Shown here piece after piece: positions 39,135 to 59,500 of a stretch of DNA of 64,000 nt. Origin of the DNA: Hymenobacter aranciens (GTDB taxonomy: Bacteria > Bacteroidota > Bacteroidia > Cytophagales > Hymenobacteraceae); assembly GCF_030580865.1 (NCBI RefSeq), contig NZ_JAUQSY010000015.1, positions 1-64,000 on the forward strand. Reading direction: 5' to 3'. The notes under the pieces were generated by a model. That model did no database searches. It was given only the letters and a program-made list of their open reading frames with translations, and was not told the DNA's origin. Numbering within the stretch: the stretch's first letter is position 1; the number at the start of each line of letters is the position of its first letter. The translations under genes were made by a program, and so were the position numbers.

Positions 39135-39165
39135 TTTGCTGCCCGCGATTCCTGCCCTACATTTG
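39135..39165 (+). promoter_or_regulatory. promoter of the alternative complex III operon
   Basis: TTTG (39135-39138), a 19-base spacer, then TACATTTG (39158-39165), an exact match to the Bacteroidetes primary sigma consensus. It is 47 bases upstream of the actA ATG at 39213 and excludes an earlier start. Confidence 0.85.
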
Positions 39166-39212
39166 TGGCCTTGAAATACCCCTGCGTTCTGTTTTCCCTG
39201 TCTGTTTCGACT

Positions 39213-40511: not shown

Positions 40512-40526
40512 ACGGTTAGGACTTCC

Positions 40527-40569
40527 GAAAACGAAGCGCCTGCCGGTCACCCGATAACGCTTCGTTTTC
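40527..40569 (+). terminator. terminator-like hairpin between actA and actB
   Basis: Perfect 12-bp arms GAAAACGAAGCG and CGCTTCGTTTTC with a 19-base loop, 15 bases after actA. The T stretch is short. Partial termination or a 3' stabilising hairpin would make ActA more abundant than the other subunits. Inference only. Confidence 0.5.
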
Positions 40570-40676
40570 AACCTTACCACCCTCTTTGCAAAAGTTTTAG
40601 CCTACTTATATTACTTATGGGCCGCGCGCCCTGGCCTTGCCAGCGCGAAAGCACCCAAGTCCCTAAGTCCCCGACA

Positions 40677-43676: not shown

Positions 43677-43737
43677 TCAATAAGTTAGGAAGGCAGGGCC
43701 GCCCACGTCCCAAGCACCCACGACTTTAGTAGTTCTT

Positions 43738-45201
43738 ATGCAACACATATCAGCCGTACGTGAGCCGCTCGTAACCGGGGGCAAAACGTACCACGACGTA
43801 ACCGCGGATATCTGCTACCAGGTAGAAGCCAAGCCGAACATCCGCTGGATGATGGCTTTCGGCGTGGCCTTGTTTTTCCTTGGTGTTTTCTTCTACTCAG
43901 TGTACCGCACGCTGTGGTACGGCATCGGCGAGTGGGGCCTGAACAAAACCGTAGGCTGGGCCTGGGACATCACCAACTTCGTGTGGTGGGTCGGTATCGG
44001 TCACGCCGGTACGCTCATCTCGGCCGTACTGCTGCTGTTCCGTCAGAAATGGCGGAGCTCCATCAACCGGGCAGCTGAGGCCATGACCATCTTCGCCGTA
44101 ATCTGCGCCGCCATGTTCCCGGTGCTGCACATGGGCCGCCCCTGGATGGCCTTCTGGGTATTGCCGCTGCAAAACACCTACGGCTCGCTCTGGGCTAACT
44201 TCAACTCGCCCCTGCTCTGGGACGTGTTCGCCATCTCGACCTACTTCTCGGTATCGCTGGTTTTCTGGTACATCGGCCTTGTGCCCGACTTCGCCACCAT
44301 CCGCGACCGTGCCAAGGGCCCCATCGCCAAAGTGGCTTACTCGATGCTCAGCCTGGGCTGGAAAGGCTCAGCCAAAGCCTGGTCGCGCTACGAAACTGTG
44401 TCGCTGATTCTGGCCGGCGTTTCGACCCCGCTGGTACTCTCGGTACACACCATCGTATCGATGGACTTTGCCACCTCGGTGGTACCGGGCTGGCACACCA
44501 CCATCTTCCCGCCCTACTTCGTGGCCGGTGCTATCTTTTCAGGCTTCGCCATGGTACTGACGTTGATGCTTATCACCCGCGTCGTGTTCCGCCTCGAAGA
44601 CTACATCACGCTGGAGCACATCGCGCTGATGAACAAAATCATGATGATTACCGGCTCCATCGTGGGCGTGGCTTACATCACGGAGTTCTTTATCGCCTGG
44701 TACTCGCAGGTAGAGTTCGAGCAGTACGCCTTTATCAACCGCGCGACCGGCCCGTACTGGTGGGCGTACGCCTCGATGATGACCTGCAACGTGATTACGC
44801 CGCAGCTGGTGTGGTTCCGCCGCGTGCGCTACAGCATTCCGCTCACGTTCATCCTGTCGATTATCGTGAACATCGGGATGTGGTTCGAGCGCTTTGTAAT
44901 CATCGTGACTTCGCTGCACCGCGAATACATTCCGTCGGGCTGGGTGATGTTCTCGCCTTCCATCATCGACATCGGCATCTACGTGGGTACGCTGGGGCTA
45001 TTCTTCACCCTGTTCCTGCTCTTCGCCAAGTTCTTCCCCGTGATTAACATGGCCGAAGTGAAGACCATCCTGAAATACACCGTGGACAATGGCCCGACCT
45101 ATACCGGCGGCCATGGTCACGGGCACGGCCACGCGCCGGCTCATCCTGTCACCCCCGGTGTTCCTGCCTCGGCTCCCGTAACCTACAACCAGCATGACTA
45201 A
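43738..45201 (+). CDS. actC: alternative complex III quinol-binding membrane subunit ActC (NrfD/PsrC family)
   Basis: 487 residues with about ten membrane helices, for example [33 protein letters not shown] and [38 protein letters not shown] and [10 protein letters not shown] are typical of NrfD-like quinol-binding subunits. The tail is His-rich ([14 protein letters not shown]) and could bind metal. It is thought to be the quinol site that feeds the ActB clusters. Its end overlaps actD by 8 bases, implying translational coupling. Confidence 0.95.
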
Positions 45202-45718
45202 GCGCTATGCCCTCGGCATCTTCGAGGACGAAGATGTTCTTCTGCACGCCATCGAAAACATTCGCGCTGCCGGCGTGAAAATCTACGATGTGTTTTCGCC
45301 CTATCCCGTCCACGGGATTGACGACGCGCTGGGCATTGAACGCTCGCGCCTGCCCATCGCCGCCTTCTTCTACGGCCTCACCGGCCTGAGCTTCGCGCTG
45401 TGGATGCAGATTTACATGCTGGGCTTCGACTGGCCGATGATTATCGGTGGTAAGCCGCACATCGCGCTGCCCGCCTTCATCCCGGTGTCGTTCGAGCTGA
45501 CGGTGTTCTTCACCTGCCACGGCATGTCGTTTACGTTCTTCCTCATCACCAGCCTGTACCCGCGCTGGAAAACCAAGGTGATGGACGTGCGCGCTACCGA
45601 CGACAAGTTCGTTATGGCCATCGAGCTGGACGAAACCAGCTCGCAACTCCCCCGGCTGACTCAACTGCTGCGCGATAACGGCGCTTCGGAGGTCAACCAA
45701 AAAGAAATGACCGAATAG
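45194..45718 (+). CDS. actD: alternative complex III membrane subunit ActD (DUF3341)
   Basis: 174 residues. The opening [39 protein letters not shown] and two membrane segments ([20 protein letters not shown] and [18 protein letters not shown]) match the DUF3341 family found only in Act operons. No cofactor motif. A structural subunit. The start overlaps the end of actC. Confidence 0.95.
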
Positions 45719-45720
45719 TA

Positions 45721-46461
45721 ATGATGCATCCGCTGAACCTGAGTTTGCGCGTGTCGGCGCTGCTGCTGTCCCTCGGACTGGCTTCGTCCTGTACGCGGGA
45801 CCAAAACGACCCCGGCCTGGAATACGCGCCGGAGATGTACGAGTCTATCCCGTACGAGCCGCTGCGTCAGACCGGCTACAATACCATTAACGCCTTCGGC
45901 ATCAACCAGCGCACGCCGGCTACCGGCACCGTGCCGCGTGGTAAGCTCAACTACTACACGCACATTCCTAAGGACAGCGTGAAAATTGCCGAGCGCGTGC
46001 TGCGTCAGCCTTACGCCTATTCAAAGGATAATCTGGAAGAAGGTAAGCTGCTCTACTCGCGCTACTGCCAGCACTGCCACGGTGAAGCTGGGGATGGCCA
46101 GGGTGCAGTAGGGGCGAAGTTCAAGGGGGTGCCGAACTATTCGACCGGTGCCTACAAAACCATGAACGACGGCCACATCTACCACGTTATTCAGTGGGGC
46201 AAAGGCCGCATGATGCCGCATGGCTCGCAGGTGAACCCCAACGAGCGCTGGAAAATTGCCATGTACGTGCGCGCTCTGCAATTGGGCAAAGGCGCTGATG
46301 GCGTGGCAGACATGATTAAAGCCGGGCCTACGACTACGGCCAGCGACACCGCCAGCACCGCTAGCAATGGCCTGACGCCGACCAGCCAAGCTGGCGCAAA
46401 TACGGCTTCCGAAACGCCCGGTCAGGGCAATACCAAAGGACACAACGGCACCGCGAACTAA
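45721..46461 (+). CDS. actE: alternative complex III monohaem cytochrome c subunit ActE
   Basis: 246 residues. A lipoprotein-type signal ends LASSC (about residue 22). The cytochrome c domain has CQHCHGEAGDGQGAVG as haem site and MMPHG as a likely Met ligand (KGRMMPHGSQVNPNERWKIA). The tail is low-complexity Thr/Ser/Ala. It is anchored by lipid on the periplasmic face and passes electrons within the Act complex or to the oxidase. The ATG follows actD by two bases. Confidence 0.93.
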   Translation: MMHPLNLSLRVSALLLSLGLASSCTRDQNDPGLEYAPEMYESIPYEPLRQTGYNTINAFGINQRTPATGTVPRGKLNYYTHIPKDSVKIAERVLRQPYAYSKDNLEEGKLLYSRYCQHCHGEAGDGQGAVGAKFKGVPNYSTGAYKTMNDGHIYHVIQWGKGRMMPHGSQVNPNERWKIAMYVRALQLGKGADGVADMIKAGPTTTASDTASTASNGLTPTSQAGANTASETPGQGNTKGHNGTAN

Positions 46462-46464
46462 ACT

Positions 46465-47775
46465 ATGGCAACTCTAACGCATCACGAAAGCGCGACGGCT
46501 GAGCACCTGGTAGTAACCGACGGCGCGCGTAAAACCTTCTTTACCATTATCGGAGCCGGTGTACTGGTGCTGATTCTGGGCCTCGTCGCCTCCTTCATGG
46601 GCTGGGGCGAGGAACACCATGCGGCGGCTGGCCATGCTGCTGCGGCTGCTCACGGCGGCGCTCATCATGAGGGCAACCCCATCTGGGTGAAACGTGTGCT
46701 GGTTAGCCTCTGGCACAGCAACCTATACCTGGTTGGTATCTCGGTAGTTGGTACCGTATTCCTCGCAATTCAATACGTAGCCTACGCTGGCTGGTCGGTG
46801 CTGGTGAAGCGCATTGCTTCGGCATTTAGTGCCTGGTTGCTGCCCGGTGCGGTTATCATGCTGATTGTGTTCTTCGTTGGCAAGGCTGATATTTTCCACT
46901 GGACCCACGAGGGTATCATGGACAAAGGAAGCCCGAACTACGACCACATCATTGCCGGTAAAAGCGGCTTCCTGAACCTGCCGTTCTACCTGATTCGCAT
47001 GGTGGTTTATCTGGCCATCTGGTGGTTCTTCTCGGAGCGTCTGCGTAAGATTTCGCTGGCCGAAGACCTGAATGGTGGTACGGCTTACTTCCACAAAAGC
47101 ATTACTGTAGCTGCACTTTTCCTTGTGCTGTTCGCCGTGACTTCGTCGATGGCCGCCTGGGACTGGGTAATGTCGGTTGACACGCACTGGTACAGCACCA
47201 TGTTCGGCTGGTACGTATTCGCCTCGTGGTGGGTCTCTGGCATTGCCGGTATCACGCTGACGGCCATTTTCCTGAAGCAGAACGGCTACCTGAAGTTTTT
47301 GTCGGCCGGGCACTTCCACGACCTCGGCAAGCTGATGTTTGGTTTCAGCATCTTCTGGACCTACGTATGGTTCGCCCAGTTCATGCTGATTTGGTACGCC
47401 AACCTGCCTGAGGAAGCAGTGTACTTCAACCAGCGCCTCGGCGGCTACAATGGCCACTATACCGGCCTATTCTTCTTCAACCTCATCATCAACTTCGTGT
47501 TTCCCTTCCTCGCGCTGATGACGCGCGATGCGAAGCGCCAGATGATTATGCTGAAGATTGTCTGCATCGCCATTCTGCTGGGCCACTGGTCGGACTTCTA
47601 CCTGATGCTGATGCCTGCCACGCTGCAAGGCAACAGCGGCTTCCTCATCGAAATTGGCATCTTTGCCATCTTCGCTGGTAGCTTCATGCTGCTGATGACG
47701 CGTCGTCTGGCTGCCGCCTCGCTGGTTCCGATTCATCACCCCTTCCTGGACGAGAGCGTCCACCACACTACGTAA
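46465..47775 (+). CDS. actF: alternative complex III membrane subunit ActF (NrfD-like)
   Basis: 436 residues, a paralogue of ActC with about ten membrane helices (FTIIGAGVLVLILGLVASFM, WLLPGAVIMLIVFFVGKADI, LFLVLFAVTSSMAAWDWVMS). AAWDWVMSVDTHWYSTMFGW and FGFSIFWTYVWFAQFMLIWY are typical of ActF. The N-terminal part has a His/Ala-rich insert. Last gene of the Act group; the oxidase genes follow after a 93-bp gap occupied by a heptad palindrome. Confidence 0.94.
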   Translation: MATLTHHESATAEHLVVTDGARKTFFTIIGAGVLVLILGLVASFMGWGEEHHAAAGHAAAAAHGGAHHEGNPIWVKRVLVSLWHSNLYLVGISVVGTVFLAIQYVAYAGWSVLVKRIASAFSAWLLPGAVIMLIVFFVGKADIFHWTHEGIMDKGSPNYDHIIAGKSGFLNLPFYLIRMVVYLAIWWFFSERLRKISLAEDLNGGTAYFHKSITVAALFLVLFAVTSSMAAWDWVMSVDTHWYSTMFGWYVFASWWVSGIAGITLTAIFLKQNGYLKFLSAGHFHDLGKLMFGFSIFWTYVWFAQFMLIWYANLPEEAVYFNQRLGGYNGHYTGLFFFNLIINFVFPFLALMTRDAKRQMIMLKIVCIAILLGHWSDFYLMLMPATLQGNSGFLIEIGIFAIFAGSFMLLMTRRLAAASLVPIHHPFLDESVHHTT

Positions 47776-47868: not shown

Positions 47869-48942
47869 ATGACTGCTCTTACCATTGTACTGGTGTTGGT
47901 GTTACTGCTGGTCGTATTCGGCCTGCTGTTTCGCCTGCAAACCCTGACTTCCATTTTTTCCGGTTCGTTTACCCGCGATATCGGCATGAGCAACAGCGTA
48001 AACGCTGTATTGTTCATTGTGTTTCTCGTGGGCGGCGGCGCGTGGTTCGCCTACTCGTTTGCTGAGAACTTCAACAAGATGAATCCCCCCATTGCCTCCA
48101 TCCACGGCCACGCCATGGAGCGGATGTTCTGGATTACGATGGCGGTGATTGGTGTGGCTTTTGTGATTACCCAAGCCCTGCTATTCTGGTATTCGTATAA
48201 ATATCAGCATAAAGAAGGCCGTCGTGCTTACTTCTTCTCGCACAACAACACGATTGAGGTGGTGTGGACTATCATCCCGGCCGTCGTAATGGCCGCGCTG
48301 ATTTTCGCTGGTTGGAAAGCCTGGACCCGCATCACTGGCCCGGCCCCCAAAGAGTCGGTTGTGCTGGAAGTGATGGGCAAGCAGTTCAACTGGCTGGTGC
48401 GCTACCCCGGCCGCGACATGAAACTGGGCGTAGTAAACTACCGCCTTATTGACGCCACCAATGAATTCGGCTTCGACCTAACTGATAAGTCAGCCCTCGA
48501 TGACTTTACTGCTGGTGAAGTACACGTTCCGAAAGGCGTGCCGGTGCTCATCAAAATCCGCTCGCGCGACGTACTGCACGCCGTGTACATGCCGCACTTC
48601 CGGGTGCAGATGTACGCCGTGCCGGGCATGCCGACCCGCTTCTGGTTCACCCCGACTACGACGACCGACGAGATGCGCGCCAAGCTGGGCAACCCCAAGT
48701 TCGACTATGAGCTGGCCTGCAACCAGATATGCGGCCGCGGTCACTTCGCCATGAAACTGAAAATCGTGGTGGATGAGCCGGATGACTACCAAAACTGGTA
48801 CGCCGCCCAGAAGTCTTTCTCGGAACAAAACCCCGACGTGCTGGCGTCTTTCAAGAACAAGCCCGCCACGATGGCTCCCGCCGCGGCTCAGGTAGAAGCG
48901 GCTGAACAGCCGGCGGCTCCGCTGGCCAGCATGTCTCACTAA
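47869..48942 (+). CDS. coxB: cytochrome c oxidase subunit II
   Basis: 357 residues. Two or three membrane helices: ALTIVLVLVLLLVVFGLLF, NAVLFIVFLVGGGAWFAYSF, and a later one near VVWTIIPAVVMAALIFAGW. The cupredoxin domain carries the CuA site: the His in HAVYMPHFRVQMYAVPGM and the ELACNQICGRGHFAMK block (about 282-298) supply Cys, Cys, His and Met. It accepts electrons from the Act cytochromes or a soluble cytochrome. The tail is Ala/Pro-rich without a cytochrome c domain. Confidence 0.95.
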   Translation: MTALTIVLVLVLLLVVFGLLFRLQTLTSIFSGSFTRDIGMSNSVNAVLFIVFLVGGGAWFAYSFAENFNKMNPPIASIHGHAMERMFWITMAVIGVAFVITQALLFWYSYKYQHKEGRRAYFFSHNNTIEVVWTIIPAVVMAALIFAGWKAWTRITGPAPKESVVLEVMGKQFNWLVRYPGRDMKLGVVNYRLIDATNEFGFDLTDKSALDDFTAGEVHVPKGVPVLIKIRSRDVLHAVYMPHFRVQMYAVPGMPTRFWFTPTTTTDEMRAKLGNPKFDYELACNQICGRGHFAMKLKIVVDEPDDYQNWYAAQKSFSEQNPDVLASFKNKPATMAPAAAQVEAAEQPAAPLASMSH

Positions 48943-48970: not shown

Positions 48971-50857
48971 ATGGACACTAATAAACCCAATCTTTCGCCC
49001 GCGGTAGATGCCCAGGGTGGTATTGGAGCGGTACCCGTGCCTCACACCGAGCACGCCGACCACCTGCACCACGACGAGCACGACCACGAGCACCACGACC
49101 AGCACTGGCTGTGGAAGTACGTTTTCAGCCAGGACCACAAAATGATTGCCCGGCAGTTCCTCATCACGGGGATGCTGTGGGCCATCATCGGCGGTACGCT
49201 GTCGAGCCTGTTCCGTCTGCAGCTCGGCTGGCCCGAGGCCACGCTGGACTGGCTCAAACCGCTGCTCGGCCACTGGATTGACGCCGGCAAGCTGAACCCC
49301 GAGTTTTACCTCGCGCTGGTGACGATGCACGGCACCATCATGGTGTTCTTCGTGCTGACGGCTGGTCTGTCGGGGACGTTCTCGAACTTCCTGATTCCGT
49401 TGCAGGTAGGAGCGCGCGATATGGCTTCGGGCTTCATGAACATGCTTTCGTACTGGTTCTTCTTCCTGTCGAGCGTGGTGATGTTCTGGTCGCTGTTTCT
49501 CGAAACCGGCCCGGCTTCGGCTGGCTGGACGATTTACCCGCCACTGTCGGCTCTGCCACAAGCCATGCCCGGCTCGGGCGCCGGCATGACGATGTGGCTC
49601 GTGAGTATGGCGCTGTTTATCGTGTCGCAGCTGCTGGGTGGCGTGAACTACGTGACTACGGTTATCAACTTGCGCACCCGCGGCATGAGCATGAGCAAGT
49701 TGCCGCTCACCATCTGGGCCTTCTTCCTGACGGCTATCCTCGGCATTCTGTCGTTCCCGGTATTGTTCTCGGCCGCGCTACTGCTGATTTTCGACCGCTC
49801 GTTCGGTACCTCGTTCTTCCTGTCGGACATCTATATTGCCGGGCAGGCGCTGAGCAACCAGGGCGGTTCGCCGGTCTTGTTCCAGCACTTGTTCTGGTTC
49901 CTGGGTCACCCGGAGGTATACATCGTAATTATGCCCGCCATGGGTATGGTGTCGGAAGTACTGGCTACCAACGCCCGCAAGCCCATCTTCGGTTACCGCG
50001 CCATGATTGGCTCACTGATTGGCATCTCGCTGCTGTCGTTCGTTGTGTGGGCTCACCACATGTTCGTGACCGGCATGAACCCCTTCCTCGGCTCGGTCTT
50101 CATGTTCCTGACGCTTATTATCGCCGTGCCTTCGGGCGTGAAGGTGTTCAACTGGCTGGCCACTCTCTGGCGCGGTAACATCCGCTTCTCGGCCGCCATG
50201 CTGTTCGCCATCGGCTTCGTGTCGCTGTTCATTTCGGGTGGTCTGACGGGGATTATCCTCGGCAACGCTACGCTGGACATTCAGATGCACAACACCTACT
50301 TCGTGGTAGCTCACTTCCACTTAGTAATGGGTAGCTCGGCCTTCTTCGGTCTGTTCTGCGGCGTGTATCACTGGTTCCCGAAGATGTTCGGCCGCATGAT
50401 GGACGAGAAGCTCGGCTACATCCACTTCTGGCTGACGTTCGCGGGTGTGTACCTCGTGTTTATGCCGATGCACTACGTGGGTATCGCCGGTTTCCCCCGC
50501 CGCTACTACGCCTGGACGGGCTTCGACGCCTTCTCGCAATTTGCTGATATGAACAAGTTCATCTCGGTGGCCGCCATCCTGGCGTTCTTCGCGCAGTTCG
50601 TGTTCGTGTTCAACTTCTTCTACAGCATCTTCCGTGGCCGTCGTGCCACCGAGAACCCCTGGAACTCGACCACGCTGGAGTGGACCACGCCCATCGAGCC
50701 CGGCCACGGCAACTGGCCCGGCGAAATCCCCGCCGTGTACCGCTGGCCCTACGACTACAGCAAGCCCGGTTCGGAAGCGGATTTCATCCCGCAAACCGTC
50801 CCGTATTCGCAAACGCAGTCGTCGAACCTGCCCTACGAGCAGGAAGTGGTTGACTAA
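48971..50857 (+). CDS. coxA: cytochrome c oxidase subunit I (haem-copper oxidase)
   Basis: 628 residues with about twelve membrane helices. The N-terminus has a His/Asp-rich stretch (HLHHDEHDHEHHDQHWLW). Catalytic core motifs are VTMHGTIMVFF (low-spin haem ligand), WFLGHPEVYIVIMPAMG (CuB His and crosslinked Tyr), VWAHHMFVTGMN (CuB His pair) and HNTYFVVAHFHLVMGSSA (haem ligands). It reduces oxygen to water and pumps protons. 28 bases after coxB. Confidence 0.97.
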   Translation: MDTNKPNLSPAVDAQGGIGAVPVPHTEHADHLHHDEHDHEHHDQHWLWKYVFSQDHKMIARQFLITGMLWAIIGGTLSSLFRLQLGWPEATLDWLKPLLGHWIDAGKLNPEFYLALVTMHGTIMVFFVLTAGLSGTFSNFLIPLQVGARDMASGFMNMLSYWFFFLSSVVMFWSLFLETGPASAGWTIYPPLSALPQAMPGSGAGMTMWLVSMALFIVSQLLGGVNYVTTVINLRTRGMSMSKLPLTIWAFFLTAILGILSFPVLFSAALLLIFDRSFGTSFFLSDIYIAGQALSNQGGSPVLFQHLFWFLGHPEVYIVIMPAMGMVSEVLATNARKPIFGYRAMIGSLIGISLLSFVVWAHHMFVTGMNPFLGSVFMFLTLIIAVPSGVKVFNWLATLWRGNIRFSAAMLFAIGFVSLFISGGLTGIILGNATLDIQMHNTYFVVAHFHLVMGSSAFFGLFCGVYHWFPKMFGRMMDEKLGYIHFWLTFAGVYLVFMPMHYVGIAGFPRRYYAWTGFDAFSQFADMNKFISVAAILAFFAQFVFVFNFFYSIFRGRRATENPWNSTTLEWTTPIEPGHGNWPGEIPAVYRWPYDYSKPGSEADFIPQTVPYSQTQSSNLPYEQEVVD

Positions 50858-50959: not shown

Positions 50960-52078
50960 ATGCAAGACGCTGCTGTTCGACGTTTCCGCTTCGTGGGCCT
51001 GCTGACGGTCGGGGCGGTTTACCTTCTAATCCTGGTCGGCGGCATCGTGCGCAGCACCGGCTCCGGCATGGGCTGCCCCGACTGGCCCAAGTGCTTCGGC
51101 ACCTGGGTGCCGCCCACGCACATCAGCCAGCTACCGGCCAACTACAAGGAAGTATACACCGCCCAGCGCGTGGCCAAAAACCAGAAGCTGGCGCGCACCC
51201 TGCAAAAGCTCGGCTTCAAGCAGGTGGCGGGCGAGATTTTTAATCACCCCACGCAGTACATCGAAACCGACTTCAACCCCGTCAAAACTTGGATTGAATA
51301 CGTGAACCGACTGCTGGGCGCGCTGATTGGGATTTTCGTGTTTCTGACCGTTGTGTTTGCCTTGCCGTACTGGCGGCGCGACGCGACGATTTTCTGGCTG
51401 GCCTTTGCCTCGTTCATTTTGACGGGTGTGCAGGGCTGGCTGGGCTCATTGGTAGTATCAACCAACCTGCTGCCGGTGATGGTGACCATTCACATGGCGC
51501 TGGCCTTGGTGATTGTGGCCATCCTGCTCTACGCGGTAGACCGGGCGCGGTGTGGGAGAGGAAATACTGTGCCCGCTTTTCAGCCATCAATACCGGCCCA
51601 TGCGCCCCAATCCTACACCGGTCTGCAATTCGGCATCTGGGTGCTGCTGCTGCTGACTTTCGTGCAGATTCTGCTCGGTACGCAGGTGCGGGAAGAAATC
51701 GACATGGTGTCGGCGGCGGTGGGCTACACTGGCCGCGAAAACTGGATTGCCCGCCTGGGCCACGTATTCAACTGGCACCGTACCTTCTCGGCCATTGTGC
51801 TGCTGGCAAACGTGTACGTCGGCTACCAGGTGTGGCAACTGGCCCAACGGCGTCTGCAGCGACTGGTTGGAGCTACTATGAGCCTTATTGCGCTGGAAAT
51901 CCTCGCCGGTTTCATCCTGGCTGGGTTCGCCCTGCCCGCAGCCGTACAGCCCATTCACCTCACGCTAGCCACCATCATTTTCGGTACGCAGTTCCTGCTG
52001 CTGCTGGGCGTGGGTGAGCTGCGAAAAGCCTCACAAATGCCCGATTCGCAGGGTGCCCCCCAACGCGTTGTTGCGTAA
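50960..52078 (+). CDS. ctaA: haem A synthase (COX15/CtaA family)
   Basis: 372 residues, eight membrane helices. Key motifs are GGIVRSTGSGMGCPDWPKCF with the two-cysteine loop, KTWIEYVNRLLGALIGIFVF, QGWLGSLVVSTNLLPVMVTIHM, and HVFNWHRTFSAIVLLANVYV with conserved His ligands. It oxidises haem O to haem A for the oxidase encoded next to it. Compared with short forms it has an extra loop (about 50-100). Confidence 0.94.
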   Translation: MQDAAVRRFRFVGLLTVGAVYLLILVGGIVRSTGSGMGCPDWPKCFGTWVPPTHISQLPANYKEVYTAQRVAKNQKLARTLQKLGFKQVAGEIFNHPTQYIETDFNPVKTWIEYVNRLLGALIGIFVFLTVVFALPYWRRDATIFWLAFASFILTGVQGWLGSLVVSTNLLPVMVTIHMALALVIVAILLYAVDRARCGRGNTVPAFQPSIPAHAPQSYTGLQFGIWVLLLLTFVQILLGTQVREEIDMVSAAVGYTGRENWIARLGHVFNWHRTFSAIVLLANVYVGYQVWQLAQRRLQRLVGATMSLIALEILAGFILAGFALPAAVQPIHLTLATIIFGTQFLLLLGVGELRKASQMPDSQGAPQRVVA

Positions 52079-52131
52079 CTTTGCAGCCCGGTTTGGCCCT
52101 GGCCCAATTGATTTCCCTAGCCCCATCCTTG

Positions 52132-52983
52132 ATGAGTAAGGCCCGCGCCTATTTTCAGCTGCTTAAATTCCGGCTTTCGCTCACGGTGGCGTTTTCCAGC
52201 GCCATCGGCTACATGCTCGGGGCGCGGGATTTCAGCTGGCTGCAGGCGGCGTTGGTGCTGATAGGTGGCTTGCTCGTAACGGGCTCGGCCAACATCATCA
52301 ACCAAATCCACGAAAAGGAGCTGGATAAGCTGATGAACCGCACCGCCAGGCGTCCGCTGCCGCTCGGTATCATCTCGCCCGCCGAAGCCTGGGTTTTTTG
52401 CGTGCTTTTGGGGGTAACGGGCCTGGCTTTGCTGGCTTACTGTTTCAACCCGCTCACTGCCGCGCTGTCGCTGCTGTCGCTTATTCTCTACGGCTTCATT
52501 TACACGCCGCTCAAGACGATTTCGCCCGTTTGCGTGGCCGTCGGGGCCATTCCGGGCGGGCTACCGCCGCTGATTGGCTGGGTAGCAGCCATGGGCTACA
52601 TCGGCGTGGAGGCCTGGGTGCTGTTCGGCATTCAGTTTATGTGGCAGTTTCCGCACTTCTGGGCCATTGCCTGGGTAGCCGACGAGGACTATAAGCGGGC
52701 GGGCTTCAAAATGCTGCCCTCGCCGGGGAACCGTGACCTGCGCACGGCGTTTCAAATAATGACTTATACGCTGCTGCTCATTCCGCTCAGCCTGCTGCCG
52801 CTGGTGTTCAACATTTCCGGCAAATGGTCGGCGCTGGTGGCGGTGGTGTGCGGCGTGCTGTTTTTCCTGCTCACGGTGCAGCTCATGCGGCGGCAGTCGC
52901 GCAAGGCGGCACTGAGTATCATGTTTGCCTCTTTTTTGTATCTGCCGATTGTGCAGATTGCGCTGGTGCTGGATAAGTTATAA
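52132..52983 (+). CDS. ctaB: protohaem IX farnesyltransferase (haem O synthase)
   Basis: 283 residues from the ATG at 52132 (MSKARAYFQLLKFRLSLTVA). UbiA-type prenyltransferase: NIINQIHEKELDKLMNRTAR holds the Asp-rich substrate site, YTPLKTISPVCVAVGAIPGG the second conserved region, and FPHFWAIAWVADEDYKRAGF the third. Seven to nine membrane helices. It adds farnesyl to haem B to give haem O, the substrate of CtaA. A heptad palindrome starts directly after its stop codon. Confidence 0.95.
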   Translation: MSKARAYFQLLKFRLSLTVAFSSAIGYMLGARDFSWLQAALVLIGGLLVTGSANIINQIHEKELDKLMNRTARRPLPLGIISPAEAWVFCVLLGVTGLALLAYCFNPLTAALSLLSLILYGFIYTPLKTISPVCVAVGAIPGGLPPLIGWVAAMGYIGVEAWVLFGIQFMWQFPHFWAIAWVADEDYKRAGFKMLPSPGNRDLRTAFQIMTYTLLLIPLSLLPLVFNISGKWSALVAVVCGVLFFLLTVQLMRRQSRKAALSIMFASFLYLPIVQIALVLDKL

Positions 52984-52985
52984 TC

Positions 52986-53071
52986 AATGAGTAATGAACA
53001 ATTGGCAATAAGTATTCTTTTGTTTCAACGCCTCCCGTTCATTGCTCATTGCCAGTTGTTCATTACTCATT
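52986..53071. repeat. heptad-repeat palindrome D (ctaB-coxC gap)
   Basis: Left arm of four 7-bp units at 52986-53013 (AATGAGT, AATGAAC, AATTGGC, AATAAGT). The right arm, read inverted, has five units at 53037-53071 (AATGAGT, AATGAAC, AACTGGC, AATGAGC, AATGAAC). The loop is 23 bases. The element starts two bases after the ctaB stop codon and ends 10 bases before the next gene's ATG. Confidence 0.93.
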
Positions 53072-53081
53072 TGACTATCCT

Positions 53082-53666
53082 ATGAATCCCGAAATCCTGT
53101 CCGAAAAAGAAGTCGGCCTTGGCTGGCACCCGAAGCGCGTTATCCTGATTCTACTCATCTTCAGCATCGTGATGATGTTTGCTGCCTTCACCAGCGGCTA
53201 CATTGTGCGGCGCGACGAGGGCAACTGGCGCGAGTTCGACCTGCCGGCCTCGCTGCTCATCAATTCCATCATCATTGCCCTGAGCAGCGCCACCATGCAG
53301 TGGGCCTGGTTTTCGGCCAAAAAAGACGAGCTGAGCCGCGTAAAAATCGGCCTTATGCTGACCTTGGCGTTGGGCCTGGCCTTCCTCGCCGGGCAGTTTA
53401 TCAGTTGGGGTGACTTGGTGGCCGGGCGCACCTTTTTCGGCGGCGCCGATGCCAATCCTTCCGGCTCTTTCGTATACGTGCTCATGGGCGTGCACGCTTT
53501 TCACCTGATTACGGGACTGGTTTTTGTGGCCGTTGTGCTGCTGCGTACCGTTAAGTATCAGGTGCATTCGCGTGCCATGCTCTCCATTGGCAACGCTACC
53601 TTGTACTGGCACTTCCTGGGCGGCCTTTGGTTGTACCTGTATTTGTTCCTACTTTTGAACCACTAA
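53082..53666 (+). CDS. cytochrome c oxidase subunit III-like protein (short paralogue)
   Basis: 194 residues from the ATG at 53082 (MNPEILSEKEVGLGWHPKRV). Five membrane helices, for example VILILLIFSIVMMFAAFTSGYIV and FVYVLMGVHAFHLITGLVFV. GVHAFHLITG and ATLYWHFLGGLWLYLYLFLL are subunit III signatures. It is followed after 21 bases by a second, longer subunit III, as is usual in Bacteroidetes cox operons. Supports subunit I; no redox centre. Confidence 0.92.
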   Translation: MNPEILSEKEVGLGWHPKRVILILLIFSIVMMFAAFTSGYIVRRDEGNWREFDLPASLLINSIIIALSSATMQWAWFSAKKDELSRVKIGLMLTLALGLAFLAGQFISWGDLVAGRTFFGGADANPSGSFVYVLMGVHAFHLITGLVFVAVVLLRTVKYQVHSRAMLSIGNATLYWHFLGGLWLYLYLFLLLNH

Positions 53667-53687
53667 AACGCCCTTTTGCTGTCTTCT

Positions 53688-54446
53688 ATGGCCCACCACG
53701 CCCCCTCTGCTACCGCTACCCTCGATGCGCCGCGCACCGGCACCTGGGACGGCGGCAACGAACCCTTCAAAGCGAGCTACGGCAAGCTCATGATGTGGTT
53801 CTTCCTGCTCTCGGATGCCTTCACCTTCGCCGCCTTCCTGACTACCTACGGCTTCATCCGCCACAAGCACGAAGTGTTTGCCGGTCCCGGTAAGTTCTTC
53901 GCTAGCACGCGCTGGTGGCCCGTGCCCGACCAGGTTTTCAATGCTTTCCCCGGCCTGCACGGCGTCGATTTGCCGCTGGCATTCGTGGCCTTGATGACGA
54001 TGATTCTCATTTTCAGCTCGGTAACCATGGTGCTGGCCGTAGAAGCCGGCCACCGCATGGACAAAGCCGACGTACAGAAATGGCTGCTCTGGACCATCCT
54101 CTTCGGCGCTACCTTCCTCGGTAGCCAGGCCTGGGAGTGGACCCACTTCATCCACGGTACCGAGAAAGGCCTGACGATGGCCGACGGCTCCGTGGTTCAC
54201 GGCGCCAATCTGGCCGTAAATCAGTACGGCCCGGTGCTCTTCGCCGACCTGTTCTTCTTCATCACTGGTTTCCACGGCACGCACGTATTCTCGGGCGTCT
54301 GCCTGCTCATCTGGTGCTTCATCGCCACCACCAACGGCACTTTCCACAAGCGCGGCCACTACGAAATGGTTGAGAAAATCGGCCTCTACTGGCACTTTGT
54401 GGACCTGGTGTGGGTGTTCGTGTTCACCTTCTTCTACTTGGTTTAA
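53688..54446 (+). CDS. coxC: cytochrome c oxidase subunit III (long paralogue)
   Basis: 252 residues from the ATG at 53688. After a hydrophilic start, five or more membrane helices: MMWFFLLSDAFTFAAFLTTY, LAFVALMTMILIFSSVTMVL, and ADLFFFITGFHGTHVFSGVCLLI. The conserved FHGTHVFSG and GLYWHFVDLVWVFVFTFFYL match COX3. A longer periplasmic loop (about 55-90) distinguishes it from the 53082 paralogue. An IR element separates it from the subunit IV gene. Confidence 0.94.
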   Translation: MAHHAPSATATLDAPRTGTWDGGNEPFKASYGKLMMWFFLLSDAFTFAAFLTTYGFIRHKHEVFAGPGKFFASTRWWPVPDQVFNAFPGLHGVDLPLAFVALMTMILIFSSVTMVLAVEAGHRMDKADVQKWLLWTILFGATFLGSQAWEWTHFIHGTEKGLTMADGSVVHGANLAVNQYGPVLFADLFFFITGFHGTHVFSGVCLLIWCFIATTNGTFHKRGHYEMVEKIGLYWHFVDLVWVFVFTFFYLV

Positions 54447-54449
54447 TCC

Positions 54450-54554
54450 TGTCATGCTGAGGAACGAAGCATCTTATCACGCTCCGATATTTCAGCTCAA
54501 CTAACCTCTAACGGCGCAAACGGGATTAGATTCTTCGCTGCGCTCAGAATGACA
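54450..54554. mobile_element. 105-bp palindromic repeat inside the cox operon
   Basis: The left end TGTCATGCTGAGGAACGAAG (54450-54469, continuing CATCT) and the right end AGATTCTTCGCTGCGCTCAG (54528-54547, continuing to TGACA) are imperfect inverted copies. This TGTCAT-CTGAG-GAAG-ATCT type of palindrome is a recurrent intergenic repeat in many bacterial genomes. It fills the coxC to subunit IV gap without disrupting a gene and carries no gene itself. Confidence 0.75.
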
Positions 54555-54559
54555 TTTTT

Positions 54560-54904
54560 ATGGCTGCTCACGCAACTACTGACCACGACCTCGCCCCTGG
54601 CGAAATCGCCAAACCCAACACCGGCTGGATTTGGAAAACTTTCTGGGTGCTGGTGGGCATCACGGCCCTGGAGTTCGTGTTCGTGTTCTTCATGAACGCG
54701 GGCACGGCTCGCAATACCATCTTCATCATCCTCACCATCTTCAAGGCCTTCTTCATCGTGGCCGAGTTCATGCACTTGAAGCATGAGACGAAGGGGCTCA
54801 TCTGGACCATTTTGGTGCCTACCTCGCTGCTGATATGGCTGCTGGTAGCCCTCATCACCGAAGGCTCGGCCATCGGCGAGGTGCTGGCCCACATGTTTAG
54901 CTAA
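54560..54904 (+). CDS. cytochrome c oxidase subunit IV (prokaryotic COX4 type)
   Basis: 114 residues with three membrane helices: IWKTFWVLVGITALEFVFVFF, TIFIILTIFKAFFIVAEFMHLK and WTILVPTSLLIWLLVALITEG. EFMHLKHETKG between helices 2 and 3 is typical of bacterial subunit IV. Small structural subunit of the oxidase. The start is taken as the ATG at 54560, directly after the palindromic element, whose right end contributes the leader. Confidence 0.9.
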   Translation: MAAHATTDHDLAPGEIAKPNTGWIWKTFWVLVGITALEFVFVFFMNAGTARNTIFIILTIFKAFFIVAEFMHLKHETKGLIWTILVPTSLLIWLLVALITEGSAIGEVLAHMFS

Positions 54905-54907
54905 TCG

Positions 54908-55576
54908 ATGCGGCCCCGCCAAACCCTGTTGCTGGGCCTTTTGCTACTGGTGCCGGTACTGGCCTTTTTGTTCCTGTACCGCTTTGGCACAAACCGTTAC
55001 GCGCTGCCCACTTACCTGCCCGACCGCGTCGATTCGACGCAAGTGGTGGGTAAGTGGCGGCGCGATACTGTTTTTCACCAGGTCGCCCCGTTTCGGCTGC
55101 GCTCCTCCGCCGGCCGGGCCGTGAGCAGCGACGAGTTGGGCCGCGGCCTCTACGTGGCCCAGTTCTACAGCGACGATGCGGCCAGCCCTTTGGTAGCGCG
55201 CGAGCTGCTGCGGGTGCAGGAGAAATTCCGCCACGAGCCGGAAGTGCGCCTCGTCACTTTCGTGACCACCGCCCCGCCTGCTACTGCGCTCACCAAGCTG
55301 GCCGAGCAGTATGGTACCATCGCGGGCAAGTGGTTTTTCCTTACCGCCAATGCTGATACCCTGCAGCAGCTGCTGAAACAGGAGTTCCGCCTCACTGCCG
55401 ACCCCAAGCGCCTGCCTGGTGCCGTGTACACCGCCAACGTGCCCGCCGGCCGCCTGCTGCTGGTCGACCGCCAGCGCCGGGTGCGCGGCATCTACGACGG
55501 CCGCGACGGCCGTGATATCGACCGGCTGCTAACTGAAATTACTGTGCAACTCTACGATTATGAGCACCCCCACTGA
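54908..55576 (+). CDS. SCO1/SenC-like protein lacking copper ligands
   Basis: 222 residues with an N-terminal membrane anchor (TLLLGLLLLVPVLAFLFLY). The thioredoxin-like fold of SCO proteins is recognisable: PFRLRSSAGRAVSSDELGRG, then YVAQFYSDDAASPLVARELL where SCO has its CxxxC copper site, and KWFFLTANADTLQQLL. The cysteine pair is absent (replaced in SDDAASP), and the distal His is also missing (GAVYTANVPAGRLLLVD). It therefore should not bind copper the usual way. Position (after subunit IV, overlapping the DUF420 gene by 17 bases) is normal for SCO. A true copper chaperone may be encoded elsewhere. Confidence 0.8.
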   Translation: MRPRQTLLLGLLLLVPVLAFLFLYRFGTNRYALPTYLPDRVDSTQVVGKWRRDTVFHQVAPFRLRSSAGRAVSSDELGRGLYVAQFYSDDAASPLVARELLRVQEKFRHEPEVRLVTFVTTAPPATALTKLAEQYGTIAGKWFFLTANADTLQQLLKQEFRLTADPKRLPGAVYTANVPAGRLLLVDRQRRVRGIYDGRDGRDIDRLLTEITVQLYDYEHPH

Positions 55577-56129
55577 ACAACTGCGCCCGCCGGTACTGGA
55601 CCCGGCCGATTATACCCGCTACAAAATCATTATGGGCGTGCTGGGCGCGGTGGTGCCGCTGCTGGTGGCCGTGCTTTACTATTTCCCCGAAACCTTCCGC
55701 ATTCCGGGAGCACAGGTGAAGTTTCTGCCGGCTGTGAATGCCGTACTCAATTCGCTGACTGCTGTGTGCCTGCTGACGGGTTTCTATTTCATCAGGCAGA
55801 AAAATGTGCTGGCACACCGTGCCATGATGGGCACAGCTTTCGCCTTTGGCGCGCTTTTCCTGCTGTCGTACGTGGCCTACCATTCGCAAGTACCTAGCAC
55901 TCATTTTGGCGGCGTTGGCACCATCCGGTTGGTCTATTTCTTTCTACTGCTGACGCACATCAGCCTGGCAGTGGTAACGGTAGCACTGGTGCTTTTTACG
56001 CTATACTTCGCCCTTACCGGCCAGTACACCAAGCATAAACGCATTGCCCGCTGGACCTTTCCGGTGTGGCTCTATGTGTCGGTGACTGGGGTTATCGTGT
56101 ACTTTATGATTTCGCCCTACTACACTTAA
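55560..56129 (+). CDS. DUF420 family membrane protein (CtaM-like oxidase assembly factor)
   Basis: 189 residues, five membrane helices: IIMGVLGAVVPLLVAVLYYF, VNAVLNSLTAVCLLTGFYFI, MMGTAFAFGALFLLSYVAYH, LTHISLAVVTVALVLFTLYF and WLYVSVTGVIVYFMISPYY. Conserved histidines occur in AHRAMMG, TKHKRIARWTFPVWL and others. DUF420 proteins lie in cox operons and the Staphylococcus homologue CtaM is needed for haem A oxidase assembly. Overlap with the SCO-like gene suggests coupled translation. Confidence 0.88.
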   Translation: MSTPTEQLRPPVLDPADYTRYKIIMGVLGAVVPLLVAVLYYFPETFRIPGAQVKFLPAVNAVLNSLTAVCLLTGFYFIRQKNVLAHRAMMGTAFAFGALFLLSYVAYHSQVPSTHFGGVGTIRLVYFFLLLTHISLAVVTVALVLFTLYFALTGQYTKHKRIARWTFPVWLYVSVTGVIVYFMISPYYT

Positions 56130-56167
56130 GCGGCGAACTTAACCACTTAAAACGTGTTCCATTACCT

Positions 56168-56422
56168 ATGAAAAAGCACACGCTCCTCGGATTTTTTACT
56201 CTGGCTATTGCTCTGCTGCTCAGCCTGCTGCCAATGGCTTCGCAAGCCCAGTGCGTGATGTGCAAGACGCAAGTGGAAGCTGCCCGCGCCGAAAAGGACG
56301 ACTACGACGTAACCGGCCTCAACAAGGGTATTCTCTATATGATGAGCATTCCGTATGTGCTGATGGGCGCAGTGGGCTATTTCTGGTATCGTCGCACGCA
56401 CCCGAAAACGGCGAAAGCCTAA
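56168..56422 (+). CDS. small CxxC membrane protein at the end of the oxidase cluster (84 aa)
   Basis: A signal peptide (LLGFFTLAIALLLSLLPMA, cut near SQAQ) is followed by CVMCKTQVEAARAEKDDYD and a membrane helix (GILYMMSIPYVLMGAVGYFWY) with a basic end. A CxxC in the periplasm next to the membrane fits a redox or copper-handling role. The position after the SCO-like and DUF420 genes fits oxidase assembly. Similar small proteins occur at this place in other Bacteroidetes; no assigned function. The frame upstream to 56066 overlaps the DUF420 gene and is not used. Confidence 0.8.
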   Translation: MKKHTLLGFFTLAIALLLSLLPMASQAQCVMCKTQVEAARAEKDDYDVTGLNKGILYMMSIPYVLMGAVGYFWYRRTHPKTAKA

Positions 56423-56457
56423 CCGTCGGCCCGCAGAATAATTCGGCAAAAAGCCGC

Positions 56458-56483
56458 AAATGCCGCCAATTGGCGGCATTTTT
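56458..56483 (+). terminator. terminator of the respiratory cluster
   Basis: AAATGCCGCCAA pairs with TTGGCGGCATTT, followed by TTTG. It is 36 bases after the CxxC gene. Confidence 0.85.
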
Positions 56484-56500
56484 GTTGCGCTTCAGTTTAC

Positions 56501-59500
56501 GTGTTTCGAGTGAGCGACCTACTACCTGCGCGGCGTTGGGGACCATTAGCCTTGCTGATGGCCGCTTTGCTATGCTTCGCCGGTGGTTATCTCACCGGCC
56601 GCTACGGCCAGAACCCGGGCGTGGTGCAGCGCACCGACGTGACGCGCCTGCAACAGCTGGTGCGCACTGCCGAAGCCACCGCCCGCCGCGATGCCGATAC
56701 CGTGGCCGCCCAGCTAGCCCAGGGTAAGTACGCTTTTGGCCCGCTGCTGGCCCGTAGTACCTACCCCACGTTCGTATTCGAAAACGGGCAGTTGCGCTAT
56801 TGGTCTGATGCTACGCTGCGGCCGGAGAACGACGCTACCAGCGGCCCGGCGGCTGAGCGGATGGTGAAAAATGCCTTCGGGGAATTTCTGTTGTTGCGGC
56901 GCATGGCCGGGCGCTACCTGGTGCTGACGTACGTGCCGCTGAAGCGGCACTACGGCATCAACAACCGCTACCTGCGCGATGGTGGGGCCGAGTCGCTGTT
57001 TCGCGGCCTGGAATTGAAAGTGGTAACCGACAGCGCCGCCCGTAACTTACCGCGCTTCGAAGCCGCCGATGGGCGCTACCTGTTTTCCATCAGGCGCTTG
57101 CAGCCTAACCCGCTGACCGGGCAATACGTGCCGCTGGCGCTGCTGGTGCTGGGGATAGTGCTGTATGCAGCCGGCTGGCTGCTGCTGGCGCGCCGCTGGT
57201 GGCTGGCTGGTCGGGGAGTAGCAGCCGTGGCGGCGCTGGTGCTGCCCTTGGGGCTGCTTCGAGGAGTGCTGCTGTATCTGGGGCTACCGTACTCATTTAT
57301 CGAGCTGCCGCTGTTTGACCCCCGGGTGTATGCGGTTTCGTTGTGGGCGCCGTCGCTGGGCGACTTACTGCTAAACTCCTTGCTAGCCCTACTGCTGGCG
57401 TATGGACTGGTGCTGCTGTGGGGGCATTTTCGCGTGCTGGCCCGGGTGCGGGCACCGCGTACGTTGCCGGGGCAGGCCTTGGCATTGGTAGGTATCGGCG
57501 CTGCATTTTGCGGATTACTGGCCTCGTTGTTTTCGTATTATTCCGACGCCTTCAGCAGCACGCAGCTTAGCCTGGACGTGACGCGCAGCATTCAGGTAAC
57601 GGGCTTTCGGCTGGGGCTGGCCCTGGCGGTGCTGCTGCATACCGGGGCGTATCTAACAGCCTTATTTCTATTAACTCAACTGACGGGTGCGGTGCTGCAG
57701 CATTTGTCGCGCCGGGCACTGCTGCTGGGACCAGGGCTGGCGGCGCTGCTGGCGCTGGCGCTGGGCCTCACCCTAGGGCAGCCGTGGGTATTGCTGCTGG
57801 GGGTGTTGCTGTTGTTTGCGGCGCTGGTACGGGCTGTGGGGCTGCAAGCGGCCCCCACGGCGGGCAATTACCAGACGTCGGTGCTGCTGGTGCTGCTGTT
57901 GGCGCTGGCCTCGGCCACGGGGGCGCTGGCGCTGTACGGGCACTTTGAAAAGCAGCTGCTGCTCGATAAGCAGCAAATTGCCAGTAACTTGTTGGTTGAT
58001 AATGACCTCCAGGGCGAGTTTCTGCTGGGCGAGCGAATTCAGGAAATTGCCGCTGACCCGTTTGTTCGGCGTTCCTTGCTCAGCGCGTTCAGCCAACCGG
58101 AGAATATCCGGCGGCGCGTGGCCCGGCAGTACCTCGGCGCTTATTTCGACAAATACGAAAGCAGCATCAGCCTCTACGATGCGGCCGGCCAACCCCTTGG
58201 TCGTGGTGAGCGCACCCCCTCGCTGGCGGCCTTGCAGGCTTATTTGCAAAAAAATGCCACCCAAACTGACCAGCCCGGCATCTACCTGCTACGCTCGGCT
58301 AATTCGTTTAGCTCGCGGCGCTACCTGGCGCTGGCCACGGTGGGGGCCCCGGCGGGCGGCGTCGGTCCGGTGCTGGGCACGGTGCGCGTGGAGTTGACTC
58401 TGAAGAAGCTAAGCGCTTACAGCGTATTGCCGGAATTGTTGGTTGACCAAAAGTTCTCCGAACCCGGCATGGCTACCCAGCTCAGCTACGCGGGCTACGA
58501 CCACGGCCAGCTGGTGTACAGCGAAGGCGATTTCGATTACGGTAATGACTTTATGCCGGCGCGCTTGCAGGAGCCGCGCCTCTACAGTGGCGGCGTGGTG
58601 GTAAATGGCTTCCATCACCTGGCCGTGCGCGGCTCGGCCGGCCGCACGGTGGTGGTGACGACGGCCACTTACTCTTTGGCGGATTGGCTGGCCAATTTTT
58701 CCTTCCAGTTTCTGTCGGGGGCAATTTTCTGGCTGCTGCTGAGCAGCTTGTATCTGCTGGTGCGCGGCTCGGAAGCCCGGCGGCTCCGGCTCAATTTCAG
58801 CACCCGTATTCAGCTGCTGCTCAACGCGGGCATTGTGATTCCGCTACTGGTGGTGAGCGTGGCCACGGCCAGCCAGCTTATTGCCGCCTACCAGCGCGAC
58901 TTGGCCAAAGCCTACGAGCGCCGCGGCCAGTTGGCCCTCGAAAGCCTGCGCCGCCGCCAGAACCTGCTGGGCGACTCGACCCGCCAGTCGCGCCTGTTGA
59001 GCGTGGTGCGCAACGTGGCCACACTCACCGAGACCGACCTGAACTTATACGATGCGCGCGGCGAACTCCTGGCCAGCAGCCAGCCGCTCATTTTCGAGGC
59101 GGGCCTGCTGGGGCCGCTGCTAAACCCTCAGGCCGTGGTGGCCCTGCGCGAGCGCGGCCAGCAGCGGGCCCTGCTCACGGAGCAGGCGGGTTCTTTGTCA
59201 TTCAATGCCTTGTACCTGCCGCTTCGTGCCTCCAGCGGCAGCGTGGCGGGGCTGATTCGCGGACAGTCGGGCGGTGCCGCCGCAGCGGCCGATTCAAGCA
59301 CTGCCGCTGTGCTGGCCGAGCTGCCCGGCACTGCCGACGAGTCGGCGGCCGCTACTGGCCCCATTGTCGGCTACGTGGGGATTCCGTTTTTCGACTCGGA
59401 GAAAGAGTTGAATACCAAGCTGACGGAACTGTTTACGACTATTCTTAACATCTTCACACTGCTGTTTCTGCTGTTCCTGGGGCTGGCTTTTGTGGCGGCC

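Follow-up and report, generated by a model that had tools for sequence, protein, structure and literature searches.

What can a protein of the SCO family do in a cytochrome c oxidase operon once the residues that bind copper have been lost? In the available part of PMC9145763, the motif CXXXCXnH is given as the definition of an SCO protein, the family is debated both as copper carrier and as thiol reductase, and CtaM/DUF420 is assigned a role in assembly. The question is raised by a gene at 54908-55576 on the forward strand of a 64,000-nucleotide stretch of Hymenobacter aranciens DNA (contig NZ_JAUQSY010000015.1), referred to here as the window. We describe the operon and the protein, the distribution of the ligand loss in Hymenobacter and in other Bacteroidia, and an RNA hairpin within the coding sequence.

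The oxidase operon

The gene order is COX2-COX1-COX15-CtaB-COX3-COX3-COX4-SCO-DUF420-CxxC, with all genes on the forward strand. COX2 (47869-48942), with an intact CuA motif (CNQICGRGHFAM), is followed by COX1 (48971-50857), the COX15/CtaA haem A synthase (50960-52078), a UbiA-family prenyltransferase that by its position would be the CtaB/CyoE haem O synthase (52081-52983), two COX3-family subunits spanning 53049-54446 (53049-53666 and 53676-54446) and cytochrome c oxidase subunit IV (COX4_pro, 54560-54904). Downstream of the SCO gene lies the DUF420 (CtaM-type) assembly factor (55560-56129), whose first ATG overlaps the 3' end of the SCO gene by 17 nt. The placement of the gene between subunit IV and DUF420 by a first-pass annotation was therefore correct. 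The large genes upstream of COX2, at 39165-47775, presumably encode an alternative complex III, which they resemble. The CuA motif of COX2, C..[IVLMA]CG..H..M, is kept in each of the 77 loci where COX2 is present, so that a CuA site is still expected in the oxidase.

The last gene (56168-56422) encodes an 84-residue CxxC protein, which had been suggested as the source of the missing cysteines. It has no match in Pfam, NCBIfam or the PDB, and nothing useful was found when solved structures were sought for it and for COX4. The suggestion is not borne out by its distribution: the protein is present with its CxxC in all 101 loci, other genera of the family included, and is a constant neighbor of ligand-bearing and ligand-less SCO genes alike, with no association between it and the ligand-less state.

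An SCO fold without the copper site

The called open reading frame coincides exactly with 54908-55576 (+), and its product of 222 residues contains no cysteine. The AlphaFold model (pLDDT 80.3) predicts a hydrophobic N-terminal helix at residues 3-30, a putative membrane anchor, followed by a linker (residues 31-57) and a thioredoxin-like domain from about residue 58. The linker is predicted to be disordered, with pLDDT <50 at residues 29-38 and 40-54. The top Foldseek matches of the model are the Bacillus SCO structures 1xzo and 4hde (E 3.4e-11 and 5.9e-11), with structural Z scores of 19.3 and 18.3 compared to about 16 for the next non-SCO proteins of thioredoxin fold. A profile of 55 orthologues searched against the PDB matched BsSco at E 5.9e-25. 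The earlier claim that the fold is kept thus holds for the predicted model. On its own, the sequence reaches 15.8 bits against the Pfam SCO1-SenC family (PF02630), under the cut-off of 22.8.

In the alignments, residues 86-95 (FYSDDAASPL; 55163-55192, +) occupy the slot of the canonical F..CPxxCP, with a shorter loop and no cysteine pair, and residues 172-181 (AVYTANVPAG; 55421-55450, +) cover the region of the distal copper-binding histidine. Against the canonical SCO found elsewhere in this genome, the protein aligns with Ala/Ser or a gap at the two cysteine positions and with proline at the position of the histidine. The reported loss of CxxxC and of the distal histidine is borne out, and no cysteine pair is found elsewhere in the protein. 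With the fold of the family and a predicted anchor, and with the CXXXC, the distal histidine and the Pfam gathering score all lacking, the protein is, as judged from its sequence, a member of the SCO fold family that lacks the ligands (hereafter pseudo-SCO) and not an SCO copper chaperone.

A second, canonical SCO

Searching the H. aranciens genome (6.02 Mb, 29 contigs, 99% complete) with PF02630 gave one match above the cut-off, on contig C2, along with three weak matches (E 0.19-0.47). The window gene is missing from these matches, which indicates that PF02630 misses ligand-less SCOs. The match above the cut-off (L001 1402-2046, reverse strand; E 5.6e-21; FFFATCPGICPKM...GGFAHNG) has both its CxxxC and its histidine and adjoins a small cytochrome c gene; the genome search proposed by the first-pass annotation, for an SCO with CxxxC, was thereby answered. 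PCuAC was not found in this genome, the best match having an E of 0.2, below the cut-off. Of the two possibilities that had been offered, the evidence favors maturation of CuA by another chaperone, for which the candidate is a second canonical SCO rather than a protein of a new kind.

An SCO gene away from the operon was also present in all 77 further Hymenobacter-type genomes searched (39/39 and 38/38), bringing the number of genomes that retain the canonical SCO to 78 of 78. Among the 82 non-operonic sequences, which include four extra copies, CxxxC is found in 82 and the histidine in 82, that of L159 and L161 being assigned by eye. The motif reads CPGICP in the full-loss clade described below (L001, L135-L161, L164, L195-L200, L202-L204) and mostly CPSICP elsewhere in the genus, including L162/L163, from the genomes of L128/L132. 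This split involves one clade and is possibly a coincidence. In the Hymenobacter artigasi genome (L205), one contig bears another two SCO-like genes separated by about 7 kb; each has CxxxC and the histidine and lacks the DPxxD motif.

Ligand loss within Hymenobacter

We compared 80 operons, namely that of the window and those of 79 of 80 fetched loci (L060 was dropped for a stop codon). One of these loci is titled Hymenobacteraceae, and the others apart from the window are titled Hymenobacter. The fetched loci were the 80 most similar to the window protein among 101, and the ligand-less clade is therefore over-represented in the resulting counts of 27 intact operonic SCOs, 9 with CxxxC and no histidine, and 44 with the cysteine pair lost or broken, 40 of the latter being full losses. 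In the family sample, whose 43 Hymenobacter genomes were chosen independently of ligand state, the corresponding numbers are 17, 3 and 23. A loss specific to this strain, which would have undercut the first-pass annotation, was rejected on the basis of both sets (40/80 and 23/43).

In a tree built from eight neighbor genes with the SCO gene excluded, the 39 full-loss rows (one of the 40 loci is absent from the tree) form one clade with a support of 100. The operonic site was lost completely in the ancestor of this single clade. Partial stages are seen as well. The pair L128/L132, which joins the full-loss clade in this tree, reads C-S-Gln, and in 9 of the 80 operons the histidine alone is lost. 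Separate from the full-loss clade are L083/L086, where both cysteines are lost, and L098, L105 and the H. aerophilus group, where the histidine is lost. The SCO of H. elongatus (L105) keeps CxxxC, has glutamine in place of the histidine, and has lost the DP of DPxxD; it is apparently an intermediate of erosion.

Selection on the ligand-less protein

Values of dN/dS were obtained by a counting method for pairs with dS of 0.1-1.5. The full-loss group (40 loci, 575 pairs) has a dN/dS of 0.19, compared to 0.17 for the intact orthologues (27 loci, 207 pairs). A pseudogene was rejected on account of this purifying selection. The constraint is distributed differently in the two groups: the domain core (residues 58-182) is relaxed in the full-loss group (0.21 versus 0.14 in the intact genes), whereas the C-terminal strand and helix (residues 183-214) are held more tightly (0.14 versus 0.25). 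The operon neighbors in the same full-loss species, at 0.05-0.13, lie below the 0.19 of the ligand-less gene. This pattern is not one of decay, and it would fit a protein surface that is still used without the active site. The other possibility offered, that of a putative structural or thiol-independent factor, is compatible with purifying selection. The sole in-frame stop among the fetched Hymenobacter copies is at codon 14 in the MAG contig L060, and is either real or an assembly error.

Eroded operonic SCOs in other Bacteroidia

A class sample of 99 Bacteroidia genomes contains 93 with DUF420 and 95 with a PF02630 match. The neighborhood of DUF420 was examined in 90 of them, excluding two Hymenobacter and G244 (not fetched). 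An SCO gene lies beside DUF420 in 76, of which 54 are intact and 22 eroded; none was detected in the other 14 (L231, L238, L241, L244, L249, L254, L257, L259, L261, L262, L282, L287, L292 and L343). All 22 genomes with an eroded operonic SCO have another PF02630 match elsewhere in the genome, which in G252 is on the same contig, 28 kb off. This other SCO carries CxxxC and the histidine in all 20 that were fetched. Hence an eroded operonic SCO accompanied by another SCO elsewhere recurs in other families of Bacteroidia.

The converse was seen in the 34 genomes with a sole SCO, where the operonic copy is always intact (class sample, 13 of 13; family sample, 8 of 8; order sample, 13 of 13). In G346 of the order sample, the position of the single match is inferred. 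Outside Hymenobacter the family sample has 77 genomes, of which we read 23: the complete set of 8 genomes with a single SCO match, and 15 of the 69 with several. Seven of the 143 genomes in the order sample, all of one family and 1-2 Mb in size, have no PF02630 match and no DUF420 either. In the class sample, G244 has DUF420 and no PF02630 match; this genome is 91% complete and its DUF420 gene lies at a contig edge. Eleven of 27 operonic SCOs in the order set are eroded, which is not a frequency because the set was selected by the number of PF02630 matches; for this reason it was kept out of the tests below.

In raw counts from the class and family samples, erosion was found in 0 of 21 genomes with a sole SCO and in 56 of 121 with a second SCO (Fisher p 1.2e-5). 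The operonic copy is intact despite a second SCO in the remaining 65 of 121, so redundancy permits the loss and does not force it. A pair test controlled for relatedness, with 6 supported independent pairs and 200 random pairings, gave on average 2.3 pairs in the expected direction, 0.0 in the opposite direction and 3.7 with no difference, which is not significant (median p 0.5). For this test the 80 named loci were substituted for the 43 genomes, and the tree was made from DUF420 only, its 28 state changes being inflated by tree error. The association of erosion with a second SCO is consistent, with no opposing pair, and its independence from common descent is not established.

An RNA hairpin in codons 31-53

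Silent variation is low at the start of the SCO gene. Diversity at four-fold sites is 0.26-0.30 in codons 1-57 and 0.43-0.65 in later codons of the full-loss genes, and 0.29-0.42 and 0.57-0.67, respectively, in the intact genes, with an edge at codon 58. Low silent diversity at gene starts is somewhat general, as illustrated by codons 20-38 of COX3 in the full-loss species (0.23). In codons 31-53 at least, one reason for it is an RNA hairpin at 55000-55064 (+), identified by folding and covariation. A second, overlapping reading frame was rejected as a reason for the low silent variation, since none of the other frames is open in every one of the 76 genes.

The outer stem of the hairpin pairs 55000-55008 with 55056-55064, and the inner helix pairs 55026-55031 with 55035-55040. 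It is followed at 55065-55076 (+) by a conserved A/U-rich tail, ATACTGTTTTTC, in which several silent positions are invariant or nearly so. The minimum free energy is -45.9 kcal/mol over 81 nt (z -5.81), and none of 200 shuffled sequences is equally stable. In an alignment of 75 sequences, 97.8% of the 1500 cells pair (shuffled 92.1, slid 33-56), and the covariation score is 0.261 (shuffled 0.147, sd 0.005; slid 0.058-0.069). Changes on both sides occur in 8 of the 20 pairs, compared to 5.5 after shuffling, where 16 of 500 shuffles reach that number; these counts come from related coding sequences, in which 6 of 14 outer-stem pairs and 1 of 6 inner pairs are invariant. At the silent third codon positions of Val41 and Ser43, all four Watson-Crick combinations occur (GTC-TCG, GTG-TCC, GTT-TCA and GTA-TCT). 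This position is paired in 71 of the 75 sequences, with 25 joint changes by parsimony, a number that may be inflated by tree error. The excess of G-U pairs (108) over A-C mismatches (17) points to a sense-strand RNA rather than a DNA palindrome.

A model of the hairpin matched one site in its own genome (a second match is the reverse strand of the same site). It also matched all 43 Hymenobacter genomes, all 8 genomes of g5, the nearest genus, and, weakly, 2 of the 69 other genomes of the family. Ligand-less and intact SCO genes have the hairpin in common, and it is about equally stable in the ligand-bearing or histidine-less genes that were folded, L085 and L129, as in others. At 19 loci of other genera of the family (L037-L043, L045-L054, L339 and L345), 10 match at E up to 5, the best being L037 (1e-4) and L042 (1e-3), and 9 are unmatched. 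Thirteen of these loci were folded, with positions partly approximate: z lies between -0.64 and 0.61 in 10 and is -1.95 in L048, -2.03 in L038 and -2.45 in L037. The best E among 92 class and order loci, ligand-less SCOs of other families included, was 0.15. An Rfam search of 53500-57000 gave four matches up to E 1, none of which overlaps 54990-55086 or passes its gathering score, and a terminator scan restricted to loops of 3-8 listed no site at the hairpin.

Proposed roles and alternative explanations

The best explanation overall, which we consider probable, combines a copper-free pseudo-SCO in the cox operon, another SCO that does the copper or thiol chemistry, and a hairpin in the mRNA. 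The operonic SCO is a genuine family member, and its copper/thiol site disappeared in the ancestor of one clade. The non-operonic SCO would load copper into the CuA site, or reduce that site, and the operonic protein may act as a metal- and thiol-free, membrane-anchored assembly or scaffold factor holding COX2 or partners such as DUF420 and COX4. The donor role of the other SCO is the more secure half of this proposal, and the scaffold function is our best guess. The hairpin would act in the mRNA on operon expression, possibly as a partial terminator, a pause, or a processing or stability signal between the subunit and assembly genes, and could explain much of the conservation of the linker and account for part of the retention of the gene. 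Given that the hairpin lies in the linker codons, the conserved disordered linker need not mean protein contact. A more specific version is tentative, and we hold it possible rather than probable: in Hymenobacter and its nearest genus the sco gene would be dual-purpose, its 5' hairpin setting the ratio of the upstream oxidase subunits to the downstream assembly factors by partial termination, pausing or mRNA processing, and its protein, freed by the second SCO, becoming a metal-free pseudo-SCO scaffold, the latter repeatedly across Bacteroidia.

A reading in which the gene is retained mainly for its RNA, with the hairpin and the translational overlap with DUF420 controlling the operon and the protein dispensable, has in its favor the covarying hairpin of all 43 Hymenobacter and 8 g5 genomes, the four-fold-site diversity of codons 1-57 at about half that of the rest, and the 17-nt overlap. 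However, residues 58-182 and 183-214, outside both RNA features, are under purifying selection (0.21 and 0.14), the hairpin is about as stable in L085 and L129 as in the other genes folded, and nothing better than E 0.15 was found in the 92 class and order loci, ligand-less SCOs among them, which makes this reading unlikely. It is likewise doubtful that the protein belongs to the aa3 oxidase, or to its supercomplex, as a stoichiometric accessory subunit instead of acting as a transient assembly factor. Its constant place in the oxidase operon, the predicted transmembrane anchor and the conserved linker and C-terminal helix would suit a subunit, but assembly factors elsewhere can occupy such positions, according to the available part of PMC9145763.

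Two further alternatives concern copper itself. It is improbable that CuA is matured by the neighboring CxxC protein or by some chaperone outside the SCO family, with neither SCO of importance for the site: the CxxC neighbor is conserved, yet it does not track ligand loss, PCuAC was not found in the H. aranciens genome (best E 0.2), and a canonical SCO is kept in all 78 Hymenobacter-type genomes searched. It is more improbable still that the pseudo-SCO binds copper through other residues, such as His57, invariant in 30 Hymenobacter orthologues, or the C-terminal His-Pro-His, common in the clade. His57 is also found in ligand-bearing orthologues and, in a wider set of 55 orthologues, is not one of the positions conserved at the 90% level, while the His-Pro-His lies within the DUF420 overlap and is constrained by it.

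Comparison with known systems

The pseudo-SCO shares its predicted fold and membrane anchor and its link to cox genes with the bacterial SCO proteins BsSco/YpmQ, ScoI and PrrC/SenC (PF02630), as far as these are covered in the available part of PMC9145763, and differs from them in lacking CXXXCXnH and in scoring under the Pfam cut-off. The same source describes two SCO paralogues in one bacterium, ScoA and ScoB of Paracoccus, whose functions seem to overlap; in Hymenobacter one paralogue is without the site. A closer parallel in ligand state is HCC2, a plant SCO paralogue from Arabidopsis that lacks both cysteines and the histidine and exists beside the canonical HCC1, its knockout having normal COX activity (PMC3971200, available part). 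HCC2 is a mitochondrial plant protein with five other cysteines and a link to the UV-B response (same source), whereas the pseudo-SCO is bacterial, is encoded in a cox operon, has no cysteine and arose by loss within one bacterial genus. This loss within Hymenobacter argues for an origin separate from that of HCC2. A literature search that included the available parts of PMC9145763, PMC3971200, PMC7414715 and PMC9232578 returned no bacterial ligand-less SCO and no RNA of this kind.

Copper delivery cannot be deduced from the presence of an SCO gene in a cox operon. Intact, half-lost (C-S-Gln, or histidine only) and fully lost sites in one operon slot constitute a natural experiment, which separates metal or thiol chemistry from a possible scaffold role. 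The embedded hairpin is in turn a testable candidate regulatory element of a respiratory operon. A GC-rich hairpin followed by an A/U-rich run is the general form of intrinsic terminators, attenuators and mRNA-stabilizing hairpins. The SCO hairpin has this form, but unlike them it lies inside a coding sequence, and its U run starts 6 nt past the main stem, or nearer if two extra pairs of the fold are counted. The string GATACTGTTTT(T/C)CA, which follows the hairpin and encodes DTVFH, recurs without the hairpin in other families (L371 2476-2569, reverse strand; L224 780-849, forward strand), and the tail may predate the stem.
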